Below, piece after piece: positions 35,415 through 49,563 of a DNA stretch of 64,000 bases. A program made the position numbers and the translations under genes. This stretch comes from Agromyces italicus DSM 16388 (GTDB lineage: Bacteria > Actinomycetota > Actinomycetes > Actinomycetales > Microbacteriaceae), in NCBI RefSeq assembly GCF_000421545.1, contig NZ_ATXF01000007.1, positions 124,001 through 188,000 of the forward strand, given 5' to 3'. Under the pieces are notes generated by a model, which saw only the letters and a program-made list of their open reading frames with translations, made no database searches and was not told the DNA's origin. Within the stretch, counting starts at the first letter, position 1. Every line of letters begins with the position of its first letter.

Positions 35415-38234
35415 TCAGCCCTCCTCTTCCTTGCGCATGGCGCGCGCCGCGCTCGCTTCGCCGCCGACGCGCGACGCCAGCAGCACGGCGAGCCCGGTGA
35501 CGAGCATCGAGCCCGCGAGCACCCCGCCGATGAGCCACGGGTCGAAGACGACCCCGGGCTGCTGGTCCGCGCCGGTGAAGGCGCGGAGGTCGATGCCCTG
35601 CAACACCACGAACGGCAGCACCACGCCGAGCAGTGCGCCGGCGACGAGCGCCACGATCACGACCGGGCCGACCTCCCACGCGACGAGTGCGCGCTCGCCG
35701 CGACGGCGCAGCCCGAGCGTCGTGAGCAGCGGGAGGAGGCGTTCGCGCGCCGGGCGCCCGACCACGAGGGTGAGCACGATCGCGAGCGCCGTGAGCAGGC
35801 TCGAGAGCACGATGGCGCCGACGAGGAAGACCACGAGCCCCTGGGTGACCGACGTCGAGGCGAGATCGTCTCGCAGCATCGTCGGCGTGGTCACGGTGGC
35901 GCCCTCACCGGCGATCTCACCGAGCGAGGCGGTCACGGCCGCGGCATCGGCTCCGGGTTCGAAGCGCACGAGCACGCGGTCGGGAACGAAGGTCCCGACG
36001 AAGCCGTCGGCGTTGGCACGGTCCATGAGCACCCAGCTCGTCCGCGGCCAGAACGCCGTGCGGCCGTCGACGACGCCGAGCGTCTCGAACGCATCACGGT
36101 CGAGCTCGACGTCCTCGGCACCCTCGATCGAATCGGCGATGACCTTCGAGATGACCACCGGCACGGCGTCGCCGCCCGTCTCCGAGAGCCCCTCGGGCAA
36201 CGGCGTCGCCCCCGAACGGCCGGCCTGCACGGCGCGCATCTCCTCGGAATCGACGACGACGAGCGTCGTCGTGCGCAGACGCCCGTCGATGCCGACCTGG
36301 ATCGAGTCGGTCGCGTACACCGGGGCGATCGCCTCGACCCCGGGCACGGCGGCGAACGCCTCCTGCTGCTCGAGCGTGAACGGAACGCCCGCCACCGCGG
36401 CATCGGCGCCGACGCGGGCGTCGGCCGCGTGGTCGACGCCGGCCTGCACCGTGCCGAGCAGCACTGCCGAGAACATCGCGACCGAGACGCCCACGACCAC
36501 GGTGAGCACGGGTACGACGCCGGCTGAGGGATCACGCAGCGCGCGCGCCGAACCGAGGAAGGCCACGAGACCCCGCCCGCGGGATGCGGCCCGCACGGTC
36601 GCGGCGAGCGGCAGCGGATAGAGGCGCAGCACGACGAGGCAGGTGAGCACTGCGAGGAGGAGCGGCACCGCGGCGAGCAGGGGATCGACGCCGACCTCGC
36701 CCGCCGAGGTCGCGAGGCCGCGCCGGAGGAGCAGCACCACCGCGGCCACGGCGACGATCGCGACGAGGGCCTCGAGGATCCATCTGATTCGTCCGCCTCC
36801 GCGCGTCGCGAAGTCGGCACGGGCGCGGCGGAGCGGGCTCAGTGCGGGTGCGGAGCTCACGAGGAGCAGCGCCGGGGTCAGGGCGAAGAGCGCCGCGATC
36901 ACGAGGCCGGCCGCGCCGCCGTCGGCGGGGACGGCGAGCGTGCCGAGCAGGGCGCCGAGCACGGCGGCGGGCACGCCGACGACGGCGCCTTCGACGGCGA
37001 GGATGCCACGGAGCTGGCCCATCGACGCCCCGCGGGCCGCGGCGAGCTCGAGCCCTTGCCTGCGCCGCTCGAACACGACGCGGGCACCGAGCACGAGCAC
37101 CGAGACCATCACACCGATGGGGCCCGAGGCGACGGTCGCGAGCACGGTGTCGCTGGCCCCGGCCGCGGTCGCCGCCGTCGTGAGGGCGTCGCCGAGCCCG
37201 CTCGAGAATCCGATCACCCCGATGGTCCTGTAGTAGTACACCCAATCGCCTGAACCGACCGGGTACCCCACGCTCGCGAACTCGTCGAGGTCGGCGCGGA
37301 GCTCGGCCGAGCGATCGGCGCGGATGCGGTCGTCGGCGACCGGGAACCACAGCTCGAGCGTGGTCGGCAGCTGCGAGCGTTCGAGCGCCGCCCACGAGTT
37401 CGGGTGCGCGAAGCCGAGCCCGGTGATGCGCAGGGTGCCGTCGGCGGTGAAGGCGACCGAGGGTTCGAGCGGCACCGGCAGATGCGTCCAGAAGCCGTCG
37501 TCGGGGTCCTTCGCGTCGAAGGTGCCGACGAGCACGACGCGCTGCGTTTCGGCGCCGAGCGGGATGCTGCGTTCCTGGCTGATCTCCCAGTCCATCTCAC
37601 GGGCGAACGGCTCGGAGGCTACGAACTCGAGCGGCTTCGCACTGGGGGCGGGCGCGGGCGGCGCCTCGGGCATCGGCAGCGAGCCGGGTTCGCCCTCGGG
37701 CTCGGCCGGCGGGGGCGGCGCCTCGAGCGCAGTCGGCCAGGTGCCCGCCGTCAGTTCGATGTGCTCGTCGAGTCGGGGGTCGAAACCCGCGTAGAAGACG
37801 TAGTCGGTGGAGCCGGGCCCGGCGCCGTCGGGCTTGGCCGAGTTGGGGCCGGCGATGACGGCCTGCAACGGATCGTCGCTCACCCGCGCGAGTTCGTCGG
37901 GCATCTGCTCGCGGATCGCGAGCAGGCGCTCCTCCTGTCCGCCCCACACGGCGTCGACGTCGTCGGCGAGGGTCGTGCCGCCGCTCGAGGGGCCGAGCTC
38001 CGGGAGCGTCGAGCGGTTCGCCGACAGGAGGTCGAGCTCGCGCGCCGGAAAGCCGGCGAGGTGCTCGGCCAGGGCCGCGGTGTGCATCGCCGCGACGGCA
38101 CGGGGGAGCGCCGTGGCGAGGAACGCGCCGGCCGCGACGAGCAGGGCGAGCATGACGGAGGCGAACGGCGCGGCGAAGAACTGCCGGTGGAAGAGGCCGA
38201 CGGGAGTCAGCGCCGAGTGGTGCCGCGCGCTCAT
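35415..38234 (-). CDS. FtsX-like ABC permease, large (second permease)
   Basis: A 939-residue permease with one N-terminal helix (FASVMLALLVAAGAFLATALP, about 17-37), a ~340-residue extracytoplasmic domain containing a Pro/Glu-rich stretch (around 210-245), and an FtsX-type block of three helices with the cytoplasmic loop RRRQGLELAAARGASMGQLRGILAVEG. A central group of helices and a second extracytoplasmic domain follow, then a terminal helix block (LVVFLVGAIVLSSLLTALAIVLTLVVG onward). It belongs to the MacB-like efflux or lipoprotein/envelope-factor class, which transmits force rather than forming a classic channel. The ATG at 38234 overlaps the upstream permease stop (ATGA) and follows GAGGAG. 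Confidence 0.87.
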   Translation of the reverse strand: MSARHHSALTPVGLFHRQFFAAPFASVMLALLVAAGAFLATALPRAVAAMHTAALAEHLAGFPARELDLLSANRSTLPELGPSSGGTTLADDVDAVWGGQEERLLAIREQMPDELARVSDDPLQAVIAGPNSAKPDGAGPGSTDYVFYAGFDPRLDEHIELTAGTWPTALEAPPPPAEPEGEPGSLPMPEAPPAPAPSAKPLEFVASEPFAREMDWEISQERSIPLGAETQRVVLVGTFDAKDPDDGFWTHLPVPLEPSVAFTADGTLRITGLGFAHPNSWAALERSQLPTTLELWFPVADDRIRADRSAELRADLDEFASVGYPVGSGDWVYYYRTIGVIGFSSGLGDALTTAATAAGASDTVLATVASGPIGVMVSVLVLGARVVFERRRQGLELAAARGASMGQLRGILAVEGAVVGVPAAVLGALLGTLAVPADGGAAGLVIAALFALTPALLLVSSAPALSPLRRARADFATRGGGRIRWILEALVAIVAVAAVVLLLRRGLATSAGEVGVDPLLAAVPLLLAVLTCLVVLRLYPLPLAATVRAASRGRGLVAFLGSARALRDPSAGVVPVLTVVVGVSVAMFSAVLLGTVQAGVDHAADARVGADAAVAGVPFTLEQQEAFAAVPGVEAIAPVYATDSIQVGIDGRLRTTTLVVVDSEEMRAVQAGRSGATPLPEGLSETGGDAVPVVISKVIADSIEGAEDVELDRDAFETLGVVDGRTAFWPRTSWVLMDRANADGFVGTFVPDRVLVRFEPGADAAAVTASLGEIAGEGATVTTPTMLRDDLASTSVTQGLVVFLVGAIVLSSLLTALAIVLTLVVGRPARERLLPLLTTLGLRRRGERALVAWEVGPVVIVALVAGALLGVVLPFVVLQGIDLRAFTGADQQPGVVFDPWLIGGVLAGSMLVTGLAVLLASRVGGEASAARAMRKEEEG

Positions 38235-41200
38235 CGCTCCTCCTCCCTGAGGCCGGGCCTGCTCGCCGTCCGGCGCACCGCTCGGGCCGCCGACGCGGCG
38301 ACGAGCCCGGCGAGCAGCGCGAAGGCCGCCAGCCCCGTGAGCCAGGGCCAGAGCTCGACCCCGAGCGTCGCCTCGAGCGAGGCGGGGGCATCGCCGATCG
38401 CCGCCCGGGCGAGCTCGCGGGCGGTCAGCCATGCGGTCGCCGCGCCGATCACGGCACCCATCACGATCGCGGCGAGCACGGTCGCGGCGAGTTCGGCGAA
38501 TCGGGCGCGTGCCTGCACGCGCGGGCCGACGCCGAGCACGCGCAGCACGACGATCTCGCCGAAGCGGCTGCCGGCGAGGGCGCTCGCGAGCGCCGTGAGC
38601 GCGATGAGGGCGAACAGCAGGGCGCCGGCCGCGGCGAGCCAGAACGTCGTGATCGCCGGGCTGATGAGCTGCGCCGACGAGGCGTCCGCCCGGGTCGTCG
38701 AGACCGTCGCGGTGCGCTGGCCTCGATCGATCGACTCCGCAGTCGCCATGGGATCGCTCGATGCGAGCCAGCGTTCGCCGAACTGCGGTACGCCGCCTCC
38801 GGCGTCGAAGGCGGCGCGTTCGAGCGCACCGAGATCAGCGAGGATCGCGTTGTCGCCCGCAGTGGGCACGGCCCGGACGACCCCCACTACGACGGCGTCG
38901 ATCTCAGCACCGCCCGACATGATCCGGAAGTCCACGGCCTCGCCGACCTCCGCCGAGATGCGGGTCGCGAGCTCGGCGGCGAGCACGACCTCCAGGGGCT
39001 CGGCACCCGACGCGAGGGGCGCCCGTGCCTCGGGGTCGCTCGCGGACAGCTCGACGGTCTCGAACGCGCCGGCGAGCTCTCGCGACGGGGTCTCGCCGTC
39101 GACCGCGACGCCGCCGAACGAGACCTGCACCCCACGGGCGCCGGGGGAGTCGACGAGCCCGGCCGAGAGGCCGAGGAGGCGGAGGCCCGTGGCATCCGGC
39201 AGTTCGAGTTCTGCGATGCCTCCCCCCGCGGCGATGCCGATCGAGCCGGCGGGCAGCCTGATCGCGGCGCCGTCGGACGTGAGGAGCCAGACCGAGACGC
39301 CGACCTCGCCCGGCGTGCCTCCGGGTGAGCGCACACCGACCTCGATCTCCAGCGTCGTGGCGCCTTCGGGCAGCGGCACCGCGGCCGCCTCCGCCGAGGG
39401 CGCCAGTTCGTCGGCCGCGGCCGCGAGTCCGGTGCCGGGGGCGAACGCCTCGAAGCCGCTCGCGGGTGCCGCGACGAGCGTCGCGGCGTCGGAGCCCAGC
39501 CGGACCTCGCCGCGGAACACCGGACCGTCGGCCACGACGCCCGGGACCTCGGCGAAGAGTTCGCCCGTCGCGAGCGGATCGGCGCCGCGCACGACGTCGC
39601 GGCCCGGAAACGAGACCCGGACCTCACCGCCGGTCGCGAGGGCCGAGGCCTCACGATCGACGGACTGCCAGGCGCTCGCGAACACCGCGGAGAGGGTGAG
39701 GCCTGCGACCGCGAGCATCGTGACGAGCGAGGCCGAGGCGAATAGGGATCCGCGCCGGGCGAGCTGCCGCATCGGCAGGGCGGGGATGAGGGCCGGTCTC
39801 GCGGCCGCCAGGCGTTCGAAGAGCACGCCGATCGGTCGTGCGAGGCCGAGCGCGAGGAGCGAGAGCGCGAGCAGGACGAGCACCGGGGCGAGCACCGCGA
39901 GCGGATCGACCTCGACTGCGCCCGTGGTGCCGGTCACGAGGGGCGAGCCGTACAGCCTGAACTGCCACAGCGAGATCACGGCGGCGACCACGATCAGCAC
40001 GACGCCGCCCGCGACCGCGGCTCGCGGCATCCGCCCGTGTTCGTCGCCCGACCCGCGCTGCACCGGCCGGCGCGCGTCGGTGAACGCCCGGCCGGCGACG
40101 AGCAGCACCGCGATCGCGACGCTCGCCGCCGTGACCAGCCAGGCGATCGACGGGTCGCGCGCCTCGCCGGGGCGGAGGAGTGCGAGCAGCAGGAGCGCGG
40201 AGAACGTGCCGACCGCGGCGGCGGGGATGCCTACCGCGAGCACCTCGAGCCCCGTGTCGCGGGCCAGGCGCGTCGCCGACGCCCCGCGAGCCCGGAGGAG
40301 GAGCGACTCACCGCGACGGGCGGCTCCGAGGAGCGCGGCGAGGCGGGCGAGAGTGGCGACGCCCGCGATGGCGAGCAGCAGCACCGGAACGGGGGCGAGT
40401 GCCCGTACCGCACCGAGACCGGCCAGGAGCCGGGTGAGGGTGCCGTGGAGGCCGCCCGAGGCGGCGAGACCGCTGGAGCCGAGGTCGTCCTGGTTGCGGA
40501 GAGCGGGCTCGACGTCGGGCAGGGCCGCACGCAGCGCGGTCGCCTCCTCGGGCGTCGTGGTGGGGTCGACGATCGCCGTCCACCGCACGACCGCCGCCGA
40601 CGGCGACGCGATGACGGTGTCCTCGTCGACGAGGAAGGGCCCCGCGGCCCCGTCGGCGAGTCCGGTCGCCACGACCGCCTCGCCGAACCAGATGGGATCG
40701 GTCGGGTCGACGGGCTCCCAGATGCCGACGACGAGCAGGGTCGGGCCGTCGTCGACGGTGACGAGCGAGCCCGGCTCGAGACCGAGCGTCGTCGCAGCGG
40801 TCGCATTCACCGCGGTCGGCACCGCGCCCAGCGCGCCGGCATCGTGCATCGACGAACCGGCACCGGGCCAGTCGCCGGCGAGCAGTTCGGCTCGCTCCGC
40901 GACGGCGGGGTCGGCCCACAGCGCGGCCTCGAACGGTTCGCCGCCAGCGATCGCCGGGGTCGGCAGAGCCAGTGTGCTCCGCTGCCAGCTCGCGCCGTGC
41001 GGCACGATCATGCGGTCGAGCACGGCGGCGGCCGCCGCCGACTGCGCGGCGGCCTCGTTCGCGAGGCGGATCTGCCAGCGTGCGGCGCCCGCGACACCGG
41101 TCGCGGACTCGAGGCCCGAGCGCAGTCCGCTCGTCGCGGCCCCGGCGAGGGTGTCGAGCGCGGCGGTGCCGATGCCCGAGAGCAGCAGCACGACGGCCGC

Positions 41201-41263
41201 GATGCCGCTGAGCACGCCGAGACGGGCGTTCGCGCGGGCGAGCGCCGTCCGTGCACTTCCCAC
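38231..41263 (-). CDS. FtsX-like ABC permease, large (first permease)
   Basis: A 1010-residue companion of the next gene with the same plan. The N-terminal helix (LGVLSGIAAVVLLLSGIGTAALD, 15-37) precedes a ~230-residue extracytoplasmic domain. An FtsX block follows (about 270-370) with the cytoplasmic motif RRGESLLLRARGASATRLAR, then central helices, a second large outer domain (about 525-870), and a last FtsX block (FGEIVVLRVLGVGPRVQARARF). The two permeases probably form a heterodimer with the two ATPases. The start is GTG with GAGGAG upstream. The substrate is unknown; no substrate-binding gene is attached. A possible minus-strand -10 (TAGAGT, 41375-41370) lies about 107 nt upstream. Confidence 0.87.
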   Translation of the reverse strand: MGSARTALARANARLGVLSGIAAVVLLLSGIGTAALDTLAGAATSGLRSGLESATGVAGAARWQIRLANEAAAQSAAAAAVLDRMIVPHGASWQRSTLALPTPAIAGGEPFEAALWADPAVAERAELLAGDWPGAGSSMHDAGALGAVPTAVNATAATTLGLEPGSLVTVDDGPTLLVVGIWEPVDPTDPIWFGEAVVATGLADGAAGPFLVDEDTVIASPSAAVVRWTAIVDPTTTPEEATALRAALPDVEPALRNQDDLGSSGLAASGGLHGTLTRLLAGLGAVRALAPVPVLLLAIAGVATLARLAALLGAARRGESLLLRARGASATRLARDTGLEVLAVGIPAAAVGTFSALLLLALLRPGEARDPSIAWLVTAASVAIAVLLVAGRAFTDARRPVQRGSGDEHGRMPRAAVAGGVVLIVVAAVISLWQFRLYGSPLVTGTTGAVEVDPLAVLAPVLVLLALSLLALGLARPIGVLFERLAAARPALIPALPMRQLARRGSLFASASLVTMLAVAGLTLSAVFASAWQSVDREASALATGGEVRVSFPGRDVVRGADPLATGELFAEVPGVVADGPVFRGEVRLGSDAATLVAAPASGFEAFAPGTGLAAAADELAPSAEAAAVPLPEGATTLEIEVGVRSPGGTPGEVGVSVWLLTSDGAAIRLPAGSIGIAAGGGIAELELPDATGLRLLGLSAGLVDSPGARGVQVSFGGVAVDGETPSRELAGAFETVELSASDPEARAPLASGAEPLEVVLAAELATRISAEVGEAVDFRIMSGGAEIDAVVVGVVRAVPTAGDNAILADLGALERAAFDAGGGVPQFGERWLASSDPMATAESIDRGQRTATVSTTRADASSAQLISPAITTFWLAAAGALLFALIALTALASALAGSRFGEIVVLRVLGVGPRVQARARFAELAATVLAAIVMGAVIGAATAWLTARELARAAIGDAPASLEATLGVELWPWLTGLAAFALLAGLVAASAARAVRRTASRPGLREEER

Positions 41264-41390
41264 GCGGGCTCCTCATCGATCGGGGCGGCACGCGGGGCGG
41301 TGCAGGGCCGGCGTGCGGTCGCCTCGATGCGGCGGCGGCACGCGAACCCGCGTGGCGACGAATTCGCACACTCTACTCCGGATCAGGGCC

Positions 41391-41420
41391 TTGCATACCA
41401 GCGCGTGCACCCCATATTCT
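41391..41420 (+). promoter_or_regulatory. Sigma-70-type promoter of the exporter leader
   Basis: TTGCAT (41391-41396) and TATTCT (41415-41420) are spaced by 18 nt, the clearest -35/-10 pair in the window. It predicts a transcript from about 41427 and so a 5' leader of about 300 nt before the first exporter gene. Confidence 0.65.
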
Positions 41421-41491
41421 GAAGGGCTGGCCGCCGCGTCCCTACGCGAGCGGCCTCGAGGGTATCGAAGACGATGACGCAGGAGGACACC

Positions 41492-41575
41492 ATGCAGACA
41501 GACATCAACGCCCGCCAGGTCGCGGTCGATGGCGCTGCCCGCCGTACGTCCCCGGTCGTGCCGTCCGTGGGGTAG
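41492..41575 (+). CDS. 27-residue leader peptide (uORF) ahead of ABC exporter
   Basis: ATG at 41492 with AGGAGG 5 nt upstream, among the best ribosome binding sites of the window, opens a 27-codon frame that ends at TAG 41573-41575. The product begins MQTDINARQVAVDG and ends RRTSPVVPSVG. An in-frame ATG at 41474 would add six residues. It has no resemblance to an enzyme or signal peptide. Its place between a strong promoter and an exporter start 150 nt later argues for a regulatory leader peptide, and a Pro-Val-Val-Pro run near its end could slow ribosomes. It was not tested for conservation. Confidence 0.55.
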   Translation: MQTDINARQVAVDGAARRTSPVVPSVG

Positions 41576-41725
41576 CGCACCCCGACAGCCCCGCAGGCGC
41601 TCAGCCTGCACGTTGCGCGGCCGTGTCGCGCCCGACGCCTCCGCGTCGACATTCTCCGTTCGTTCTCCGCCGTTCCGCGTCGCGTCGCGACCCCGATCGG
41701 CCACTCCTCCGAGAGGAATCCGGCT
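41576..41725 (+). promoter_or_regulatory. Structured leader with candidate attenuator
   Basis: Between the uORF stop and the exporter start lie several possible stems: GGGGT/ACCCC across the uORF stop codon; GCAGGC/GCCTGC (41594-41610 region); and CGACGC/GCGTCG (about 41632-41648), which competes with TGTCGCGC/GCG-CGACA and is followed by the pyrimidine-rich ATTCTCCGTTCGTTCTCC. The last hairpin plus T/C-rich tail looks like a weak intrinsic terminator, so ribosome position on the uORF could decide read-through. A GAGAGGA then precedes the TTG start. No energy calculation was possible. Confidence 0.4.
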
Positions 41726-43663
41726 TTGTCCGACACCGTCCAGCCGCAGCAGCCCGCTGCGACCGAACCTCCCCCGCACGAGCAGCTCGGGGCGCTCCGC
41801 GCGCTCTGGCGCCTGCGCGAATACGCGGGGCCGGCGATGCCGGCGTTCGCCGGGAGCATGGCCGCGGCGCTCGTCGCGCAACTCATCGCGCTGACGATCC
41901 CGCAGGTCCTCCAGCAGATCGTCGACGGCCCGCTCGCCGACGGCGATGCCTCGGCGGTCGTGCCGCTGGCGATGCTCGTCTTCGGCCTCGGCGCCGCCGA
42001 GGCGCTCCTCTACGCGCTGCGGCGCTGGCTCGTCGTCGGCCCCGGCACGAAGGTCGAGGCGCGCATGCGCAACGCGCTCTACGCGAAGCTGCAAGACCTG
42101 CCGGTGAGCTTCCACGACCGCTGGCCGAGCGGCCAGCTGCTCTCGCGCGCGGTGAGCGACCTCGGCCTCATTCGCCGCTGGCTGTCATTCGGGCTCGTGC
42201 TCACCGGGGCGAACCTCGTGATCATCGTCGTCGGCGTCGGCATCCTCATGTCGATGAACTGGATGCTCGGGCTCATCTTCCTCGTCTGCTCGCTCCCGCT
42301 GTGGTGGGCTGGCTGGCGGTTCGAGGGGCGCTACTCCGAGAAGTCGCGGCTCAGCCAGGACCAGCAGGGCGACCTCGCCACCGCGGTCGAGGAGTCGGTC
42401 CACGGCATCCGCGTGCTGAAGGCGTTCGGCCGGGGCAAGCACGCCCTCTCGAGCTTCCGCGCGCAGGCCGAGTCGCTGCGCCGCACCGAGATCGAGAAGG
42501 CGCGCCTCGACGCGAACATCTGGGTCTGGATCATGGTGGTGCCGACGGTGGCGCTCGCGCTGTGCCTCGTGGTCGGCATCTGGCTGGCCGCGAACGGACA
42601 GCTCACGGTGGGCGAGCTCGTCGCGTTCTTCGCGACGGCGGCGGTGCTGGCGTGGCCGATCGAGTCGATCGGCTTCATGCTCGCCTTCGCGCTCGACGCG
42701 CGCACCGCGACCGATCGCTTCTTCGACATCCTCGACAGCGAGAACACCATCGTCGACCCGGCCGAGCCGCGGCACGACGAGCGGCCGCGCGGCGAGCTCG
42801 CGTTCTCGAACGTGCACTTCCGCTACCAGGATTCGCCCGATCGCTTCGGCGACCTGCTCGACGGCGTCGACCTCGTGGTCGAGCCGGGCGAGACGATGGC
42901 GCTCGTCGGGCTCACCGGCTCGGGCAAGACGACCATGACGGCCCTCACCACACGTCTCTACGATGTCACGGGCGGATCGGTCGAGCTCGACGGCGTCGAC
43001 GTGCGGGCCTTCACCCGAGATGAGCTGCGCCGACACATCGCGATGGCCTTCGAGGATGCGACCCTGTTCAGCGCCTCCGTGCGCGAGAACGTGCTGCTCG
43101 GCCGGCCCGAGCTCACCGGCGATGCGGCCACCGACCCCGCGGTCGCGGCCGAGGCCGAGCGGGTGCTCGACGAGGCGCTGCGCATCGCGCAGGCGGGTTT
43201 CGCCTACGACTTGCCCGAGGGCGTCGACACGAAGGTCGGCGAAGAGGGCATGAGCCTCTCGGGCGGCCAGCGGCAGCGGCTCGCACTCGCCCGTGCGGTC
43301 GCGGCCAAGCCCGCGGTGCTCGTGCTCGACGACCCGCTCTCGGCGCTCGACGTCGCGACCGAGGCACGGGTGGAGGCCGAGCTCCGCTCGGTACTCGCCG
43401 ACACCACCGCGCTCATCGTGGCGCACCGCCCGTCGACGGTCATGCTCGCCGACCGGGTGGCGCTGCTCGAGGCGGGCCGCGTGACGGCGGTCGGCACCCA
43501 TTCCGAACTGCTCCGCGAGAGCGAGCACTACCGATTCGTCATCTCGAGCTTCGAGGACGACGAGCGTCGCGGTGTCGAGACGCGTCCGGGTCTCGAGACG
43601 CGTCCTCCTTCGTCGGGCGCTCCTCGACCAGCAGGTCTCGAGCGAGAGGAGGCGGCATCATGA
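41726..43663 (+). CDS. Heterodimeric ABC exporter subunit with degenerate catalytic site
   Basis: A type IV ABC exporter half-transporter (645 residues): six transmembrane helices (about 35-320), then an ATPase domain with Walker [12 protein letters not shown]-loop [15 protein letters not shown], canonical signature LSGGQ (511-515) and H-loop [10 protein letters not shown]. Walker B reads [11 protein letters not shown]: Asp536 replaces the catalytic glutamate, the usual mark of the degenerate site in heterodimeric exporters such as BmrCD or TM287/288. The start is TTG (GAGAGGA upstream). The C-terminal ~35 residues ([20 protein letters not shown]) are encoded by a REP-like repeat. It overlaps the partner gene by 4 nt. 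Confidence 0.92.
43570..43640. repeat. REP-like repeat inside the exporter gene 3' end
   Basis: Two direct copies of TCGAGACGCGTCC (about 43576 and 43593) are followed by GGCGCTCCTCGACCAGC, the same pieces in the same order as at 15862-15903. It is translated in frame as the last residues of the first exporter subunit. Confidence 0.75.
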
Positions 43664-45465
43664 GCGTCACCGGTGTGCAGGGAGAAGAGCGCAACGACTA
43701 CTCGAAGGCGGAGTCGCGGCACATCAGGGCCCGTTCACGGCGCCTGCTGGGCTCGCTCCTGAGACCCCAGCAGGGCAAGCTCTGGCTGACCGCGGCCGCG
43801 GTCGTCGTCTCGTCGGCCGCGCAGGTCGCCGGCCCCGTGATCATCGCGTACGGGATCGACCAGGGCATCCCCGCGCTCATGGAGCAGGACTGGATGCCTG
43901 CGGCCTTCGCCGGACTCGCGTACCTGCTCACCGGGCTCGTGGGCGCGTTCCTCATCTCCGTCTACATCAGGATGTCGGCGCGGATCAGCCAGGCCGTGCT
44001 CATCGACCTGCGGACCCGGGTGTTCCTGCACACGCAGAAGCTCTCGCTCGAGTTCCACGAGTCGTACACCTCGGGCCGCATCATCTCGCGGCAGACGAGC
44101 GACCTCGACGCCATCCGCGAGCTGATGGACGAGGGGCTCACGATGCTCGTGCGCGGCCTCATGTACATGGTGTTCACCGCGATCGCGCTCCTGTTGCTCG
44201 ACTGGCAGTCGGGGCTCGTGCTGCTCGTCGCGCTGATCCCCCTCGGCATCCTGACCCGCTGGTTCCAGGTGCGCTCGCAGGCGCTGTTCCGGCGCTCGCG
44301 GGTGGCGTCGGCGAAGCTCATCGTGCAGTTCGTCGAGACGATGACCGGCATCCGCGCGGTGCAGGCGTTCCGCAAGGAGCGCCGCAACGAGCAGGAGTTC
44401 GGCGGCCTCGTCGAGGACTACCGCGATGTCAACGCGAAGGTGCTGGGCCTCTTCGCAGTGTTCAACCCGGGCCTCGCGCTCATCGGCAACGCGGCGGTCG
44501 CGGTGACGATCGTGCTCGGCGGGTTCCGGGTCATCGACGGCACGCTCGGGGTCGGCGTGCTCCTCGCGGCGGTGCTCTTCACGAAGCGCTTCTTCGACCC
44601 GATGGAGGACCTGGCGATGTTCTACAACGGGTACCAGTCTGCCTCCTCCGCGCTCGAGAAGATCTCGGGCGTGCTCGAGGAGGAGCCGAGCGTGCCCGAC
44701 CCGGCGAAGCCGGTCGACCTCTGGAACGCGGAGGGCCGGGTGCGTTTCGACGGCGTCGAGTTCGCGTACACGCAGGGCCGGGTCATCCTGCCCCGCTTCG
44801 ACCTCGACGTGCCGGCGGGCCAGACGATCGCCCTCGTCGGGTCGACGGGCGCGGGCAAGTCGACGCTCGCGAAGCTCATCGCGCGCTTCTACGACCCGAG
44901 CGAGGGCGTGGTGTCGCTCGACGGCGTCGCGCTCAGCGACCTGCACCCGAAGGACCTGCGGCGCGCGATCGTCATGGTCACGCAGGAGGCGTACCTCTTC
45001 TCGGGCTCGGTCGCCGACAACATCGCGCTCGGCAAGCCCGACGCGAGCTTCGACGAGATCGTGCGGGCGGCGCAGGCCGTCGGCGCGCACGAGTTCATCG
45101 AGGGGCTGCCGAACGGCTACGACACCGACGTGAACAAGCGCGGCGGCCGGGTGAGCGCGGGCCAGCGACAGCTGATCTCGTTCGCCCGTGCCTTCCTCGC
45201 GAACCCCGCGGTGCTCATCCTCGACGAGGCGACGAGCTCGCTCGACATCCCGAGCGAGCGACTCGTGCAGGAGGGGCTGACGAAGCTCCTCGCCGACCGC
45301 ACCGCGGTGATCATCGCGCACCGCCTCTCGACGGTCGCGATCGCCGACCGGGTGCTCGTCATGGAGCACGGCCGCATCGTCGAGGACGGCGCGCCCGCCG
45401 AGCTCATCGGCGGCACCGGCCGCTTCGCCGCGCTGCACGCGGCCTGGCGGGACTCGCTGGTGTGA
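43660..45465 (+). CDS. Heterodimeric ABC exporter partner subunit
   Basis: A 601-residue half-transporter: six helices (about 38-320), then an ATPase domain with Walker [12 protein letters not shown]-loop [13 protein letters not shown], Walker [11 protein letters not shown] with catalytic Glu523, and H-loop IIAHRLSTV. Its signature is VSAGQ (498-502) instead of LSGGQ. With the Asp536 in the partner, this places one degenerate and one consensus ATP site in the dimer, as in known heterodimeric drug exporters. ATG at 43660 overlaps the upstream stop (ATGA). Both subunits together probably export lipids or amphiphilic drugs. Confidence 0.93.
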
Positions 45466-45555: not shown

Positions 45556-46839
45556 TCAGCGCGGCGCGACCACCACGGGGGCGACCGCGCTCCCGTCGAA
45601 TCCGGTCGTGGCCCGGATCGTGTAGGCCCCCATCCCGGGGCTCACGACGAGGTCGCCCACGCCGAGCGGCGGCAGCGGGTGGTCTCGCGCGACGAGGTCG
45701 CGAGGGTCGTTCGCCGGACCCACGAGGGTCGTCGGCACCCGGTGCCGGGTGAGGAGCCGACGGGTCGCGCGATCGGTCGCGCCGTCGGGGAGCGGCTGGC
45801 TGCCGAGCTCCTCTGCGGCGATGATCGGGCGGCGGCCGTCGTGTCGCATGGCAGGGAGGAACTCGTGCACCTCGCAGTCGAGGGCGAGCCATCGGCCGTC
45901 GGAGCGGTCGGCGCCGGCGACGACGCGCGCGACGAGGGTCATCGCGGGTGCGGCGACGAACCGGCCGGGGGCGATCACCAGCCGCAGGTGCGCGGGCGCG
46001 CCCGCGAGTGCGGCCCTGATGCGTGCGGCGACCCCGAGGAACGCGGCGGCCGGGTCGTCGGCGAGGGGGAGCCCGCCGCCGAGGTCGAGCATCTCGAAAC
46101 GCGTGCCGTGCCGGCGCTCGAGCGAGCGGATGAGCGCGAGCGTACCGCGGATCGCGCGCTCCCAGACCGCCGGGTCGCGCTGCCGGTCGCCGAGGTGGAA
46201 GGTGAAGCCCGCGACCCGGAGTCCGACCCGTCGGCAGTGCGCCACGAGTGCGGGCGCCTGCTCGGTGGAGACACCCGACCCGGACTCCCCGCCGGGGAAC
46301 GCGAGTCGCACGAGCACGGCGACGTCGCGGGGGAGTCCCGCGAACTTGGCGACCTCCGAACGGGCATCGACGACGAAGGTCCGGATGCCCCGGAGGTAGG
46401 CGCTCGTGAGGTCGTCGACGCGTTTGACGGGGGCGACGTGCACGACGTGCCTGAGCGGCACGCCCTCGCGCTCGAGCAGCGTGATCTCGCCTCGCGAGGC
46501 GACGTCGAAGCCCGCGCCGAAGGCGTGCACCGCTCGTATCGCGGCGGGGTGCGGGAGCGCGCCGAGCGCGAAGTGGAGGTGCACGCCGGGCAGCTCGCGC
46601 CGCAGGGCGAGCAGTCGCGTCGCGATCCGATCGGTGTCGAGCACCAGGAGCGGGCTGCCGTGCGCTTCGACGAGCTCGGCGATCCGCATCCTGGCGGCGT
46701 CGGCGGCGACTTCGCGGCGGATGAGCTCGCGGCGGGGCGGGAGCTCGGGGGCGGGCAGGGCGCTGCGACGTCGAGGCCCGGAGCGCCGGTTGCGCTCGAG
46801 CGTGGGAGTGGGAGTGGGGGTGGGGGTTGCGCCGAACAT
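45556..46839 (-). CDS. Degenerate group III PLP decarboxylase-like protein (probable pseudoenzyme)
   Basis: A 427-residue protein with the fold pattern of Orn/Dap/Arg decarboxylases (LysA-like): GSPLLVLDTDRI, FGAGFDVASRGEI, GFTFHLGDRQ, MLDLGGGLP, and GVGDLVVSPGMGAYT with a closing GFDG. Key active-site positions are changed. YAVKAN, which holds the PLP lysine, reads FALGAL (Gly93 for Lys). EPGR reads APGR (Ala290 for Glu). GPTCDS reads GPANDP (Asn377 for the catalytic Cys). PLP could not be bound as a Schiff base, so decarboxylation is not expected. The N-terminus has a TPTPTPTPT repeat and an Arg-rich stretch. The start ATG at 46839 is tentative; frame is open to 46908. It is divergent from a two-component pair. 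Confidence 0.8.
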   Translation of the reverse strand: MFGATPTPTPTPTLERNRRSGPRRRSALPAPELPPRRELIRREVAADAARMRIAELVEAHGSPLLVLDTDRIATRLLALRRELPGVHLHFALGALPHPAAIRAVHAFGAGFDVASRGEITLLEREGVPLRHVVHVAPVKRVDDLTSAYLRGIRTFVVDARSEVAKFAGLPRDVAVLVRLAFPGGESGSGVSTEQAPALVAHCRRVGLRVAGFTFHLGDRQRDPAVWERAIRGTLALIRSLERRHGTRFEMLDLGGGLPLADDPAAAFLGVAARIRAALAGAPAHLRLVIAPGRFVAAPAMTLVARVVAGADRSDGRWLALDCEVHEFLPAMRHDGRRPIIAAEELGSQPLPDGATDRATRRLLTRHRVPTTLVGPANDPRDLVARDHPLPPLGVGDLVVSPGMGAYTIRATTGFDGSAVAPVVVAPR

Positions 46840-47017
46840 GTGACCGATACTCGCCGAGTCGCTCGCCGTCCGGATCAGGAACGACCACGGATCCGACTGG
46901 GTGCACACCCTGAACCCTCGTCGGCACGCACGTCGCGCGGGCAGTATGCCACGTCGAAGGGCTGCCCGGATCCGGGCACCCCCTGAACCGGGGGAGCGGC
47001 GCGAGTGCCGAACGCGA

Positions 47018-47055
47018 TACGCTCACGACAGGCGGGGGCGACCGGTTCGGTCGCC
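47018..47055 (+). promoter_or_regulatory. Promoter and leader hairpin of the response regulator gene
   Basis: A -10-like TACGCT (47018-47023) predicts a start near 47030. The first leader bases can fold with arms GGCGACC (47037-47043) and GGTCGCC (47049-47055) around a GGTTC loop. The leader to the ATG is about 84 nt. Confidence 0.4.
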
Positions 47056-47113
47056 TGTGCCCGTTTCACGGCTCGAATCGAATCGGTTCGGCGCCCCGGC
47101 GGAAGAGGTGTGC

Positions 47114-47779
47114 ATGGACGAGACGTCTCGACCGTTGCGCGTCGCCATCGCCGACGACGCGCTCCTCCTCCGCGAGGGCATCGCGAAGGTGCTCGAGGGC
47201 GGCGGGCTCGAGGTCGTCGCCTCGGTCGGCACCGGTGAGGAGCTCGTCGAGGTCGTGCGCGCCGGGGGCGTCGACGCGGCCGTACTCGACATCCGCATGC
47301 CGCCGAGCTATCGCGACGAGGGCATCCTCGCGCTCGAGTCGCTTCGCGCGAGCGGGTCGACGATCGGCGTGCTGCTGCTCTCGATGTACGCGACGCCCGA
47401 ATACGCCCTGCGCGTGATGGGCGCCGGCAGCGGCACCGGGTACCTCTTGAAAGAGCGGGTCTCCGAACCGCAGACCCTCGTGCGCGCCGTCGAGACGGTC
47501 GCGTCGGGCGGCTCGGTCGTCGACCCCGAGGTCGTCGAGCAGCTCGTGCAGCGCACCCGCGCCGACGACCCGCTGTCACGGCTCACCGAGCGCGAGCGAT
47601 CGGTGCTCGAGCTCATGGCCCAGGGCTATTCCAACGGCGGCATCGCCCAGACCCTCTTCCTCGGCCTGAAGACGGTCGAGACCCATGTCCGCTCGATTCT
47701 CCAGAAGCTCGACCTCGAGGAGTCGCCCGAGCACCATCGGCGGGTGCTCGCGGTGCTGACGCTCCTCGGCGCGAGGTGA
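47114..47779 (+). CDS. NarL/LuxR-family response regulator
   Basis: A 221-residue two-component regulator. The receiver domain (about 8-125) starts RVAIADDALLLREGI, with the phosphoacceptor Asp59 in AAVLDIRMPPSYRDEG and the conserved Lys in GYLLKERV. The GerE/LuxR helix-turn-helix occupies about 155-215 (LTERERSVLELMAQGYSNGGIAQTLFLGLKTVETHVRSIL). ATG at 47114 has AGAGGTG upstream. Its stop overlaps the histidine kinase start, so the pair is co-translated. It is divergent from the decarboxylase-like gene, which may be a target. Confidence 0.93.
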   Translation: MDETSRPLRVAIADDALLLREGIAKVLEGGGLEVVASVGTGEELVEVVRAGGVDAAVLDIRMPPSYRDEGILALESLRASGSTIGVLLLSMYATPEYALRVMGAGSGTGYLLKERVSEPQTLVRAVETVASGGSVVDPEVVEQLVQRTRADDPLSRLTERERSVLELMAQGYSNGGIAQTLFLGLKTVETHVRSILQKLDLEESPEHHRRVLAVLTLLGAR

Positions 47780-49563
47780 TGGCGCCCGGCCGACGCGGCC
47801 GGATCATCAGACGAACGATCACCATCGCGTCGGTCGTCGCGCTGAGCCTCGCGATGGAAGTCGCCGGGTTCCTCGCGGCCGCCGAGTCCGAGCGCCCCGA
47901 GGTGAGTTACGTCACCCTGCATGCGATCGTGCCGCTCGTCTTCGCGGCCTGCGCGGGCGTCGCCTGGGCGATCGGGCCCTCGCGCGTGCCGGCGCGGCTC
48001 ATGGTGCTCTTCCCGGTCGTGTGGATCCCGCTCACCTTCCTCCGGGTCATCGAAGACCTGGGCTGGCTCTGGCCGTTGCTCTACGGCGTTCACCTCTGGT
48101 GGGGCCTGCTCACGGGCATCCTCGTGCTGCTCTACCCCCGCGGCGACTTCGGCGACCGTCTGGCCAGGGTGCTCGGCGCGATCGCGCTCGCGGCCTCGGT
48201 CACCTACCTGCTCGGCACCGTGCTGCTCGCCGAACCGCCCGCCGCGCTCTGCGACTGTGCGCCGAACCCCTACCGCATCATCGACGCCCCCGTCGTCTCC
48301 GGCGTCATCGACATCGGCTATCGCCTCATCGGCGTCGTCCTCGCGCTCGTCATCGCCGTGCGCTTCCTCGTGCGCTGGATCCGCGGCAGCGTGCCCGCCC
48401 GGACGGTGGCCTTCCTCATGCCGCTGGCGCTGCTGGCCTGGGCGACGACCCTCGCCGCGCAGGCGGTCACCTACGCGGCCAACGCGACCGCCCCGCTGGT
48501 GCTCGCGACCGTCTCGCTCGTGGCGATCGCCTCCATCCCGGTGAGCTTCGTCGCCGGCATCTCGCACACCCGGAACATGCGTGCCCGCGTCGCCGACCTG
48601 ATGCGCATCACCCGTGAGGGAGCCGATCGCGGCCTCTGGGCCGAGTCGCTCGCGCGCACCCTCCGGGACGCCTCGGTGCGGGTCTACTGGTGGGACGAGG
48701 AACGGGGCCGGTACGCGGATGCCTCGGGCGATCCCATCGAGCACGATCCCGCCGACCGCCACGGCGACCACAGCCTGCTGCCGGTGGCCTCGCCGACGGG
48801 CATGCCGATCGCGCTCATCCGGCACGACCGGGTGCTCACCGACAACATGCGCCTGCTCGACGGCGTGTCGAGCGCGCTCCGGCTCTCGGTCGACAACGGG
48901 CGCCTGCGCTCCGAGATCGAGCGCACCCTCGAGCAGGTGCGCCAGTCGCGCGCGCGCATCGTCGAGGCCGGCGACGAGGCACGACGCCGCATCGAACGCG
49001 ACCTGCACGACGGGGCGCAGCAGCATCTCGTCTCGCTCGGCATGCGGCTGCGGCTCGCCGCGAACCAGGCGCGCGACCGCGGGATCGAACCGCTCGGCGT
49101 CGAGCTCGACGGCAACATCGCGATGCTGAACGACGCGCTGAAGGAGTTGCGCGAACTCGCACACGGCATCCACCCCTCGCTGCTCTCCTCGGGCGGGCTC
49201 GCGCTCGCCGTGCCCGAGCTCGCGGGTCGCTGCCCGGTGCCGTTCGAGATCGACGTGCAGGCGGAGGGGCGGCTGCCCGAGGTGATCGAGTCGACGGCGT
49301 ACTTCGTCGTCGCCGAGGCGCTCGCGAATGTCGCCAAGCACGCGCAGGCGACTCGGGGCTGGGTGCGCGCGCACCTCGCTGACGGCGTGCTCGAAGTCGT
49401 CGTGCGCGACAACGGCGTCGGCGGCGCGGCGCTTCACGGCAGCGGCATGCTCGGCATCTCCGACCGGGTCGACGCCGTCGGCGGTGAGCTCGCGATCGAG
49501 AGCCCCGTCGGCGCCGGCACGACGATCACCGTGCGCATCCCGGTCCCCCTCCCCATGCCCTGA
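47779..49563 (+). CDS. NarX/DesK-type sensor histidine kinase
   Basis: A 594-residue membrane kinase. About eight hydrophobic segments fill residues 10-250, with little extracytoplasmic sequence, so the signal is probably sensed in or near the membrane. A GAF-like linker region (about 265-360) and a coiled-coil helix follow, then the HisKA_3 box RRRIERDLHDGAQQHLVSLG with phospho-acceptor His410, and a HATPase_c domain (EALANVAKHAQAT, VRDNGVGGA, GSGMLGISDRVDAVGG). ATG at 47779 overlaps the regulator stop by one base; GTG 47776 is an alternative start. The ligand is unknown. Confidence 0.9.
   Translation: MAPGRRGRIIRRTITIASVVALSLAMEVAGFLAAAESERPEVSYVTLHAIVPLVFAACAGVAWAIGPSRVPARLMVLFPVVWIPLTFLRVIEDLGWLWPLLYGVHLWWGLLTGILVLLYPRGDFGDRLARVLGAIALAASVTYLLGTVLLAEPPAALCDCAPNPYRIIDAPVVSGVIDIGYRLIGVVLALVIAVRFLVRWIRGSVPARTVAFLMPLALLAWATTLAAQAVTYAANATAPLVLATVSLVAIASIPVSFVAGISHTRNMRARVADLMRITREGADRGLWAESLARTLRDASVRVYWWDEERGRYADASGDPIEHDPADRHGDHSLLPVASPTGMPIALIRHDRVLTDNMRLLDGVSSALRLSVDNGRLRSEIERTLEQVRQSRARIVEAGDEARRRIERDLHDGAQQHLVSLGMRLRLAANQARDRGIEPLGVELDGNIAMLNDALKELRELAHGIHPSLLSSGGLALAVPELAGRCPVPFEIDVQAEGRLPEVIESTAYFVVAEALANVAKHAQATRGWVRAHLADGVLEVVVRDNGVGGAALHGSGMLGISDRVDAVGGELAIESPVGAGTTITVRIPVPLPMP

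Follow-up and report, generated by a model that had tools for sequence, protein, structure and literature searches.

A conserved upstream open reading frame with a drifting peptide ahead of a heterodimeric ABC exporter in Agromyces italicus and other Microbacteriaceae: a candidate for ribosome-dependent control of premature termination

Several described bacterial leaders place a gene under the control of an upstream open reading frame (uORF), and these systems offer the closest comparisons for the locus considered below. In Bacillus subtilis, translation of the bmrB leader is needed for induction of bmrCD by lincomycin, and the 53-codon leader reading frame has an intrinsic terminator within it (PMC4191407). 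In Streptomyces lincolnensis, lmrC is subject to ribosome-mediated attenuation, in which uORF2 must be translated for the gene to stay off and loss of the uORF2 start makes expression constitutive (PMC8546547). In a model for mycobacterial ilvB1, a ribosome that has reached the uORF stop covers about 26 nt (PMC13236596). In Escherichia coli, a ribosome held at the stop codon of tnaC blocks Rho from its loading (rut) site (PMC8429421), and the uORF of toiL-topAI responds to ribosome-targeting antibiotics of at least five classes in a manner linked to Rho-dependent termination (PMC12121999). The translation state of the CruR uORF of Bordetella decides Rho-dependent termination before the next gene (PMC9426467). 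The uORF attenuators known in actinobacteria serve regulators, amino-acid genes and ATP-binding cassette (ABC) proteins of the ABC-F type. The present analysis concerns a uORF-containing leader ahead of an ABC exporter in Agromyces italicus DSM 16388, within a 64,000-nt stretch of contig NZ_ATXF01000007.1 that is referred to as the window and numbered from its first letter.

The order of promoter, uORF, 150-nt untranslated RNA and exporter genes (41726-45465) can be read directly in the window, with all of these elements on the plus strand. The uORF comprises 27 codons (MQTDINARQVAVDGAARRTSPVVPSVG), runs from an ATG at 41492 to a TAG at 41573-41575, and is led by the Shine-Dalgarno (SD) sequence AGGAGGA at 41481-41487. 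Behind it, positions 41576-41725 form a C-rich, G-poor untranslated segment which, judged by base composition, is a candidate zone for Rho loading and termination. In relatives the initiation site, frame and stop of the uORF are kept, the peptide drifts and the C-rich stretch follows, a combination suggesting that uORF translation controls premature termination. A conserved, in-frame, SD-led uORF tied to the exporter makes some form of ribosome-dependent control the best reading of the locus. The more specific proposal, that uORF translation gates a premature, Rho-type termination before the exporter, is preferred tentatively, at slightly less than even confidence.

Conservation was assessed in 116 exporter loci, consisting of 80 named records, 30 loci from a genome search and 6 added stretches, with some species present in both sets; the named records are the best 80 of 258 relatives and hence the nearest ones. 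Under a basic rule that requires an SD core of at least 5 bases, 99 of the 116 loci have a uORF ahead of the exporter, and collapsing duplicate leaders leaves 82 distinct sequences. All 82 begin with ATG, and AGGAGGA is complete in 59, the rest having shorter GAGG-type cores. Under a stricter rule, the uORF was found in 91 of 115 orthologous leaders, whereas dinucleotide shuffles gave one in 6 of 2,300 cases and the 195 regions before other long open reading frames (ORFs) of the same records gave none; locus L103, which starts 27 nt before the exporter match, was excluded from this test and from tree scoring. Within Agromyces the uORF is present in 57/57 loci (a set that includes one Leifsonia and one Microterricola) and in all 6 of the added ones, so that none examined lacks it. 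An alignment of 34 of 44 Agromyces rows (L024-L026, L044, L045, L072, L134-L136 and L138 were left out) contains seven uORF lengths, every one a multiple of three (34/34 rows), while the distances before and after the uORF vary freely. The sequence-only reading had claimed a uORF with an excellent ribosome binding site and had proposed a leader alignment as its check, naming lack of a conserved frame in relatives as the outcome that would count against it. The frame is conserved, the uORF occurs far above chance and the ribosome site is complete.

On a quickly built tree of 80 exporter proteins, the uORF is present in 63 of 79 scored rows and requires 6 state changes, a number that none of 500 label shuffles matched or undercut. 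From these sequences we infer that the common ancestor of the sampled Microbacteriaceae exporters already had the leader, which was later lost on several occasions. The distance from the -10 element to the exporter match is 62-172 nt in 14 uORF-less loci (omitting L088 and L102, whose promoter was not recognised, and L103), compared with 192-509 nt in 76 uORF-bearing leaders (omitting six without a recognised promoter). Presence of the uORF thus tends to go with presence of the long C-rich segment, the leader apparently acting as a unit. One leader-bearing record titled as an Acidobacteria metagenome-assembled genome (L122) groups within the Microbacteriaceae rows of the tree and is probably a binning error. 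Outside the family, the promoter motif was found in 0 of 18 genomes (19 loci, one genome being represented twice) in the stretch examined, and three of these genomes contain a short, unrelated ORF that starts with GTG. A DNA search with the leader at E 0.001 counted matches in 6 of 60 family genomes, a figure that takes in the leader's own genome or a row beyond those listed; the matches listed are five weak ones in relatives (L010-L014) and a second one in its own genome (L015). These were rejected as homologous leaders, since L010 and L012-L015 have no exporter match and L011 falls within the gene of a different ABC transporter. Rfam 15 gave no leader match over 41200-42000, the one match there scoring below the gathering threshold and lying on the minus strand outside the leader.

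The peptide itself shows little sign of being maintained. Among 15 nearest-neighbour Agromyces pairs there are 17 synonymous and 58 non-synonymous codon differences, spread over the codon positions as 31/34/30; in 69 wider pairs the corresponding figures are 89 and 660, with positions at 405/402/286. This plain count over 37 Agromyces rows, made with no fitted ratio of non-synonymous to synonymous rates (dN/dS), gives no purifying selection on the peptide. Across genera the uORF peptides share little beyond the start, their C-terminal sequences differ between species, and no conserved run of regulatory codons was seen in the uORF. A Pro-Val-Val-Pro run near the uORF end had been suggested as a possible stall site, a suggestion that does not survive comparison: PVVP occurs in 1 of 82 unique uORFs, that of the window. 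An arrest peptide in general is likewise unsupported by the simple count.

The stop codon, by comparison with other genes of the same loci, is strongly biased. The uORF ends in TAG in 67, TAA in 10 and TGA in 5 of the 82 unique leaders (TAG/TAA in 77/82), whereas TGA closes 247 of 335 long ORFs of the same loci. In the named records, TGA is the uORF stop in 4/63 with 3 changes on the tree, and the stop of the second exporter subunit in 31/62 with 12 changes. The first subunit ends in TGA in 80/80, presumably a constraint of its overlap with subunit 2. Since TAA is enriched besides TAG, what is avoided is UGA; UAG and UAA are both read by release factor 1 (RF1). A stop-codon stem, predicted by folding, could favour TAG in part of Agromyces: GGCGCTGCCC (41531-41540) may pair with GGGGTAGCGC (41569-41578) within 41531-41579, with 8 aligned pairs, 76.8% of cells paired and 3 pairs changed on both sides. 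This stem was not chosen in the consensus fold of the Agromyces alignment and is not consistent outside the genus, and TAA and the other genera are left unexplained by it. By eye, a mid-uORF GGC-NCT-GCN (41525-41545) seems to be kept at the RNA level, while the amino acid of NCT varies between Ala, Ser, Thr and Pro, and it is able to pair with the uORF stop region in Agromyces; NCT codons are expected to be uncommon in genes this GC-rich.

The segment behind the stop has, by its letters, the base composition of a Rho-loading stretch. C minus G is 0.167 in the window and averages 0.173 over the 82 leaders, compared with 0.004 before 134 other ORFs of the same loci, a comparison whose p value is not to be taken literally because the leaders are related. 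The value lies between 0.085 and 0.229 in all nine genus groups; C exceeds G in 82/82 leaders, and C peaks in the first 20 nt past the stop (0.52). Over the best 78 nt of each segment, the C/G ratio reaches 1.5 or more in 95% of 80 leaders (two short segments being left out) and in 35% of the 134 controls.

A hairpin often stands close behind the uORF stop. In the window this hairpin A, GCAGGC-GCTCA-GCCTGC, occupies 41593-41609, 17 nt behind the stop. In the alignment 93.6% of its cells are paired, and an A-U/C-G double change occurs in 12/34 rows, which are rows and not independent events. In 31/34 Agromyces rows its first aligned column is found 13-18 nt past the stop, so that hairpin A may begin about where a terminating ribosome would end. 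More widely, a hairpin of at least six Watson-Crick pairs within 52 nt past the stop is present in 53/82 leaders, compared with 6.5% of shuffles; counted by hand, it is found in 38/44 Agromyces leaders and 15/38 others. In a structure test, paired cells (84.0%) and the covariation score exceeded all 500 shuffles and all slid versions. Pairing of GGGTAG with the 3' arm of hairpin A is possible by eye in many rows; it fails where hairpin A is GCCGGC and is not claimed.

Under the proposed mechanism, normal translation of the uORF and release of the ribosome would leave naked C-rich RNA exposed, on which Rho, or less likely a hairpin, would stop transcription before the exporter. If ribosomes were slowed on the uORF, for example by ribosome-targeting antibiotics, a ribosome would linger, cover the stop-proximal C-rich RNA or alter its folding, and the exporter would be transcribed. 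Sequence features make Rho the likelier effector compared with a hairpin. Antibiotics as the input are suggested by the exporter and by the precedents. Since the peptide is unconserved, such a sensor would read the general behaviour of ribosomes on the uORF or at its stop and not an arrest sequence. A narrower version, possible but doubtful, takes ribosome dwell at the UAG/UAA stop as the signal and Rho as the effector, a tnaC-like logic without an arrest peptide. In the sampled Microbacteriaceae, the amino acids of the uORF would then convey nothing, and selection would act on strong initiation, an open frame and an RF1 stop, followed by a C-rich Rho-loading stretch and, in Agromyces, accompanied by a hairpin where the edge of a terminating ribosome would lie.

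Several observations weigh against gating of Rho-type termination by the uORF. The uORF is missing from 16 of the 79 scored relatives, and in the window folding predicts that most of its SD sequence is paired (mean unpaired probability 0.15). The C-over-G bias is a signal of composition, in which a rut site is only a candidate; the 14 uORF-less leaders are also C-biased (C 0.39, G 0.29), and the starts of the 134 control ORFs were assigned mechanically. Two of the five measures of the structure test did not rise above shuffles, namely the number of pairs with double changes (190/500 shuffles as high) and the number of pair types (391/500). No conserved, mutually exclusive pairing between the uORF and the downstream segment was identified. 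The window leader folds no better than its shuffles (z -0.11; 44/100 shuffles as good), which makes the competing hairpins proposed in the sequence-only reading unremarkable in the window alone; in Agromyces, paired changes are seen in hairpin A and the stop-codon stem, with no mutually exclusive partner identified for either. Moreover, actinobacterial intrinsic terminators may lack a U-tail, and a test for T-runs covers none of those.

This last point bears on intrinsic attenuation of the bmrB or lmrC kind, in which a ribosome stalled on the uORF would decide whether the RNA folds into an antiterminator or into an intrinsic terminator hairpin. Precedents exist for an ABC exporter (PMC4191407) and for the resistance gene of an actinobacterium (PMC8546547), some paired changes exist in hairpin A and the Agromyces stop-codon stem, and the window has a second hairpin, GACGC-CTCC-GCGTC, followed by a T/C-rich stretch (41634-41668). 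The T/C-rich tail noted from the sequence is thus real (41649-41668), but a hairpin with a T-run occurs in the post-stop segment of 6/82 leaders compared with 4.6% of shuffles, which is chance level, and a terminator scan of the window found none. Folding of the post-stop segment is mildly below shuffles (mean z -0.92 over every second row, 41 of 82), and no conserved competing pairing was identified, so that this mechanism is rated unlikely. Translational attenuation, in which the leader would mask the exporter ribosome site until ribosome stalling on the uORF freed it, has precedents in topAI (PMC12121999) and cplR (PMC10201436) and agrees with the low mean unpaired probability predicted for the exporter SD in the window (0.21). 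It is considered quite unlikely: inspection by eye identified no conserved anti-SD sequence, the arrangement CCGG-AAGGA-CCGG in 10/82 leaders would place the SD in a loop, and the strong excess of C over G would be unneeded.

Two further explanations dispense with sensing. If the uORF were a constitutive helper, whether by ribosome loading, reinitiation or mRNA protection, a kept SD and frame with a peptide under no selection would be expected. Its stop, however, lies 76-300 nt from the exporter match, a spacing that is poor for reinitiation, and the avoidance of UGA, the spacing of the hairpin and the C-rich segment would be left unexplained. Reinitiation from leader peptides has been proposed in general terms (PMC4833913), and for this locus the idea is judged improbable. 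That the uORF encodes a functional small protein, such as a regulator or subunit of the exporter, would fit the kept reading frame and the gene-like GC content by codon position (0.71, 0.63 and 0.85 in 37 Agromyces rows). It is nonetheless very improbable, as substitutions are spread over the codon positions, are fewer at the third position in the 69 wider pairs and mostly change the amino acid, and little is shared between genera beyond the start.

The exporter behind the leader consists of two genes. Subunit 1, with a membrane domain and an ATPase (41726-43663; Pfam ABC_membrane match), starts at a TTG at 41726 behind the ribosome site GAGAGGAA, site and start codon spanning 41711-41728; subunit 2 (43660-45465) overlaps it by ATGA. 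In the translations, subunit 1 has a Walker B motif VLVLDD without the catalytic Glu and a canonical LSGGQ, and subunit 2 has a canonical Walker B VLILDE and a degenerate signature, VSAGQ. The pair VLVLDD/VSAGQ is of the kind characteristic of heterodimeric exporters in which one of the ATP sites is dead. Judged by these motifs, the exporter has the two half-transporters and single degenerate ATP site of the BmrCD, TM287/288 and LmrCD kind, and relatives of its subunits in the structure database PDB include TM_0288, YheI/BmrC and YheH. The motif pair and these relatives bear out the initial view of a two-subunit, heterodimeric exporter behind the leader. In NCBIfam, MsbA-related models were matched, none of those listed exceeding its cut-off (best 25, compared with 183 and 184). 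Subunit 1 is 97% identical to that of Agromyces lapidis, also of the Microbacteriaceae.

As in bmrB-bmrCD, a heterodimeric ABC exporter is immediately preceded here by a short leader ORF that has its own ribosome site; the locus differs in phylum, in having a hairpin with T-run at chance frequency, and in the C-rich untranslated segment that follows a short, drifting uORF. The suggestion of bmrB-like attenuation therefore holds for the layout of leader ORF and exporter and not for a conserved intrinsic terminator with a T-run; the leader may work similarly to bmrB and is not classed as a member. Like lmrC, it is an actinobacterial uORF leader, whereas lmrC encodes an ABC-F ribosome-protection factor and not an exporter, and its terminator has been mapped and mutated (PMC8546547). 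whiB7 and ilvB1 are likewise cases of uORF-based transcription attenuation in actinobacteria, but serve regulator or amino-acid genes, and ilvB1 carries regulatory LVVI codons as well as an intrinsic terminator (PMC13236596). The proposed logic of a stop-held ribosome opposed to Rho resembles tnaC, and C-rich, G-poor RNA does lie directly behind the stop here. tnaC, however, needs an arrest peptide, tryptophan and release factor 2, whereas the present peptide is unconserved and the stop is of the RF1 type (PMC8429421). In toiL-topAI, occlusion of the SD represses translation, Rho-dependent termination takes place inside the gene and the target is a toxin-antitoxin system (PMC12121999). With CruR the locus has in common the translation state of a uORF as the proposed switch of Rho-dependent termination (PMC9426467), and differs from it in having no conserved peptide motif. 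The best reading is that the leader works in the manner of tnaC, topAI and lmrC without belonging to any of these types. The sequence-only reading knew of no actinobacterial system with this layout, and in agreement with it the open-access literature, among the matches listed, contains no uORF attenuator on an actinobacterial ABC exporter.

The promoter is kept together with the exporter, with or without the uORF. It consists of a -35 element TTGCAT (41391-41396), an 18-nt spacer and a -10 element TATTCT (41415-41420), and continues into an operon-specific conserved motif, GAAGGGCTG, around the expected transcription start (41391-41425 in all). The good promoter seen in the letters is upheld by these elements and by conservation of the motif in relatives, although a simple promoter scan of the window found none. 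The motif was recognised in 76 of the 82 unique uORF leaders (the exceptions being L080, L090, L091, L092, L101 and L123) and in 14 of 17 uORF-less loci. Of 8 Agromyces genomes searched with the pattern TTGC-N18-22-TANNCTGNARGGCTG, 7 yield exactly one match and one yields none, with a reversed control at 0/8; in the genome of the window the pattern occurs once. Without the -35 part, TANNCTGNARGGCTG has one match in 4 of 6 genomes and two and three in the others, the control giving one match in one genome. TANNCTGNARGGCTG (41415-41429) spans the -10 element and the expected start, and forms of it are kept in the uORF-less L108, L112, L114, L118 and L120 (Agreia) and in others. It may be an operator or a conserved 5' end of the RNA. 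Since ARGGCTG is kept where the uORF has been lost, it is part of the promoter, of an operator or of the 5' end of the RNA and not of the uORF. For the same reason, the presence of AGGGCTG in uORF-less leaders too, a pairing of the 5' AGGGCTG with CAGCCC behind the uORF stop was dropped. A hairpin is also predicted near the 5' end of the untranslated leader, formed by GGCCGCCGCG and CGCGAGCGGCC (41429-41455), and GGCC..GGCC hairpins resembling it are visible by eye in relatives.

In the window, a divergent gene of 1010 residues on the minus strand (38231-41263) has no NCBIfam match at E 0.001, and its product has what we take to be the appearance of a large FtsX/MacB-type permease. A minus-strand gene at 45556-46908 encodes a diaminopimelate-decarboxylase-like protein that falls far under the lysA cut-off and is perhaps another pyridoxal-phosphate decarboxylase. 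Judged by their translations, a gene for a LuxR-type response regulator and, behind it, one resembling a sensor kinase (46901-49563, plus strand) lie directly downstream of the exporter region. Across loci the gene upstream of the exporter varies (L028, L045, L062-L064, L104, L106, L108, L110, L116 and L119), while promoter and leader stay with the exporter. Several of these upstream genes have a conserved C-terminus, EFEKLEGCVTCLSVRVR or similar, and others have a purH-like end.

If a sensor blind to the peptide does operate here, it would control an exporter of the multidrug type. A leader kept over many genera would give a native reporter of translation stress that is easy to test. Together, its drifting peptide and its avoidance of UGA raise the question of whether a uORF could sense how ribosomes behave at termination in the absence of an arrest sequence.

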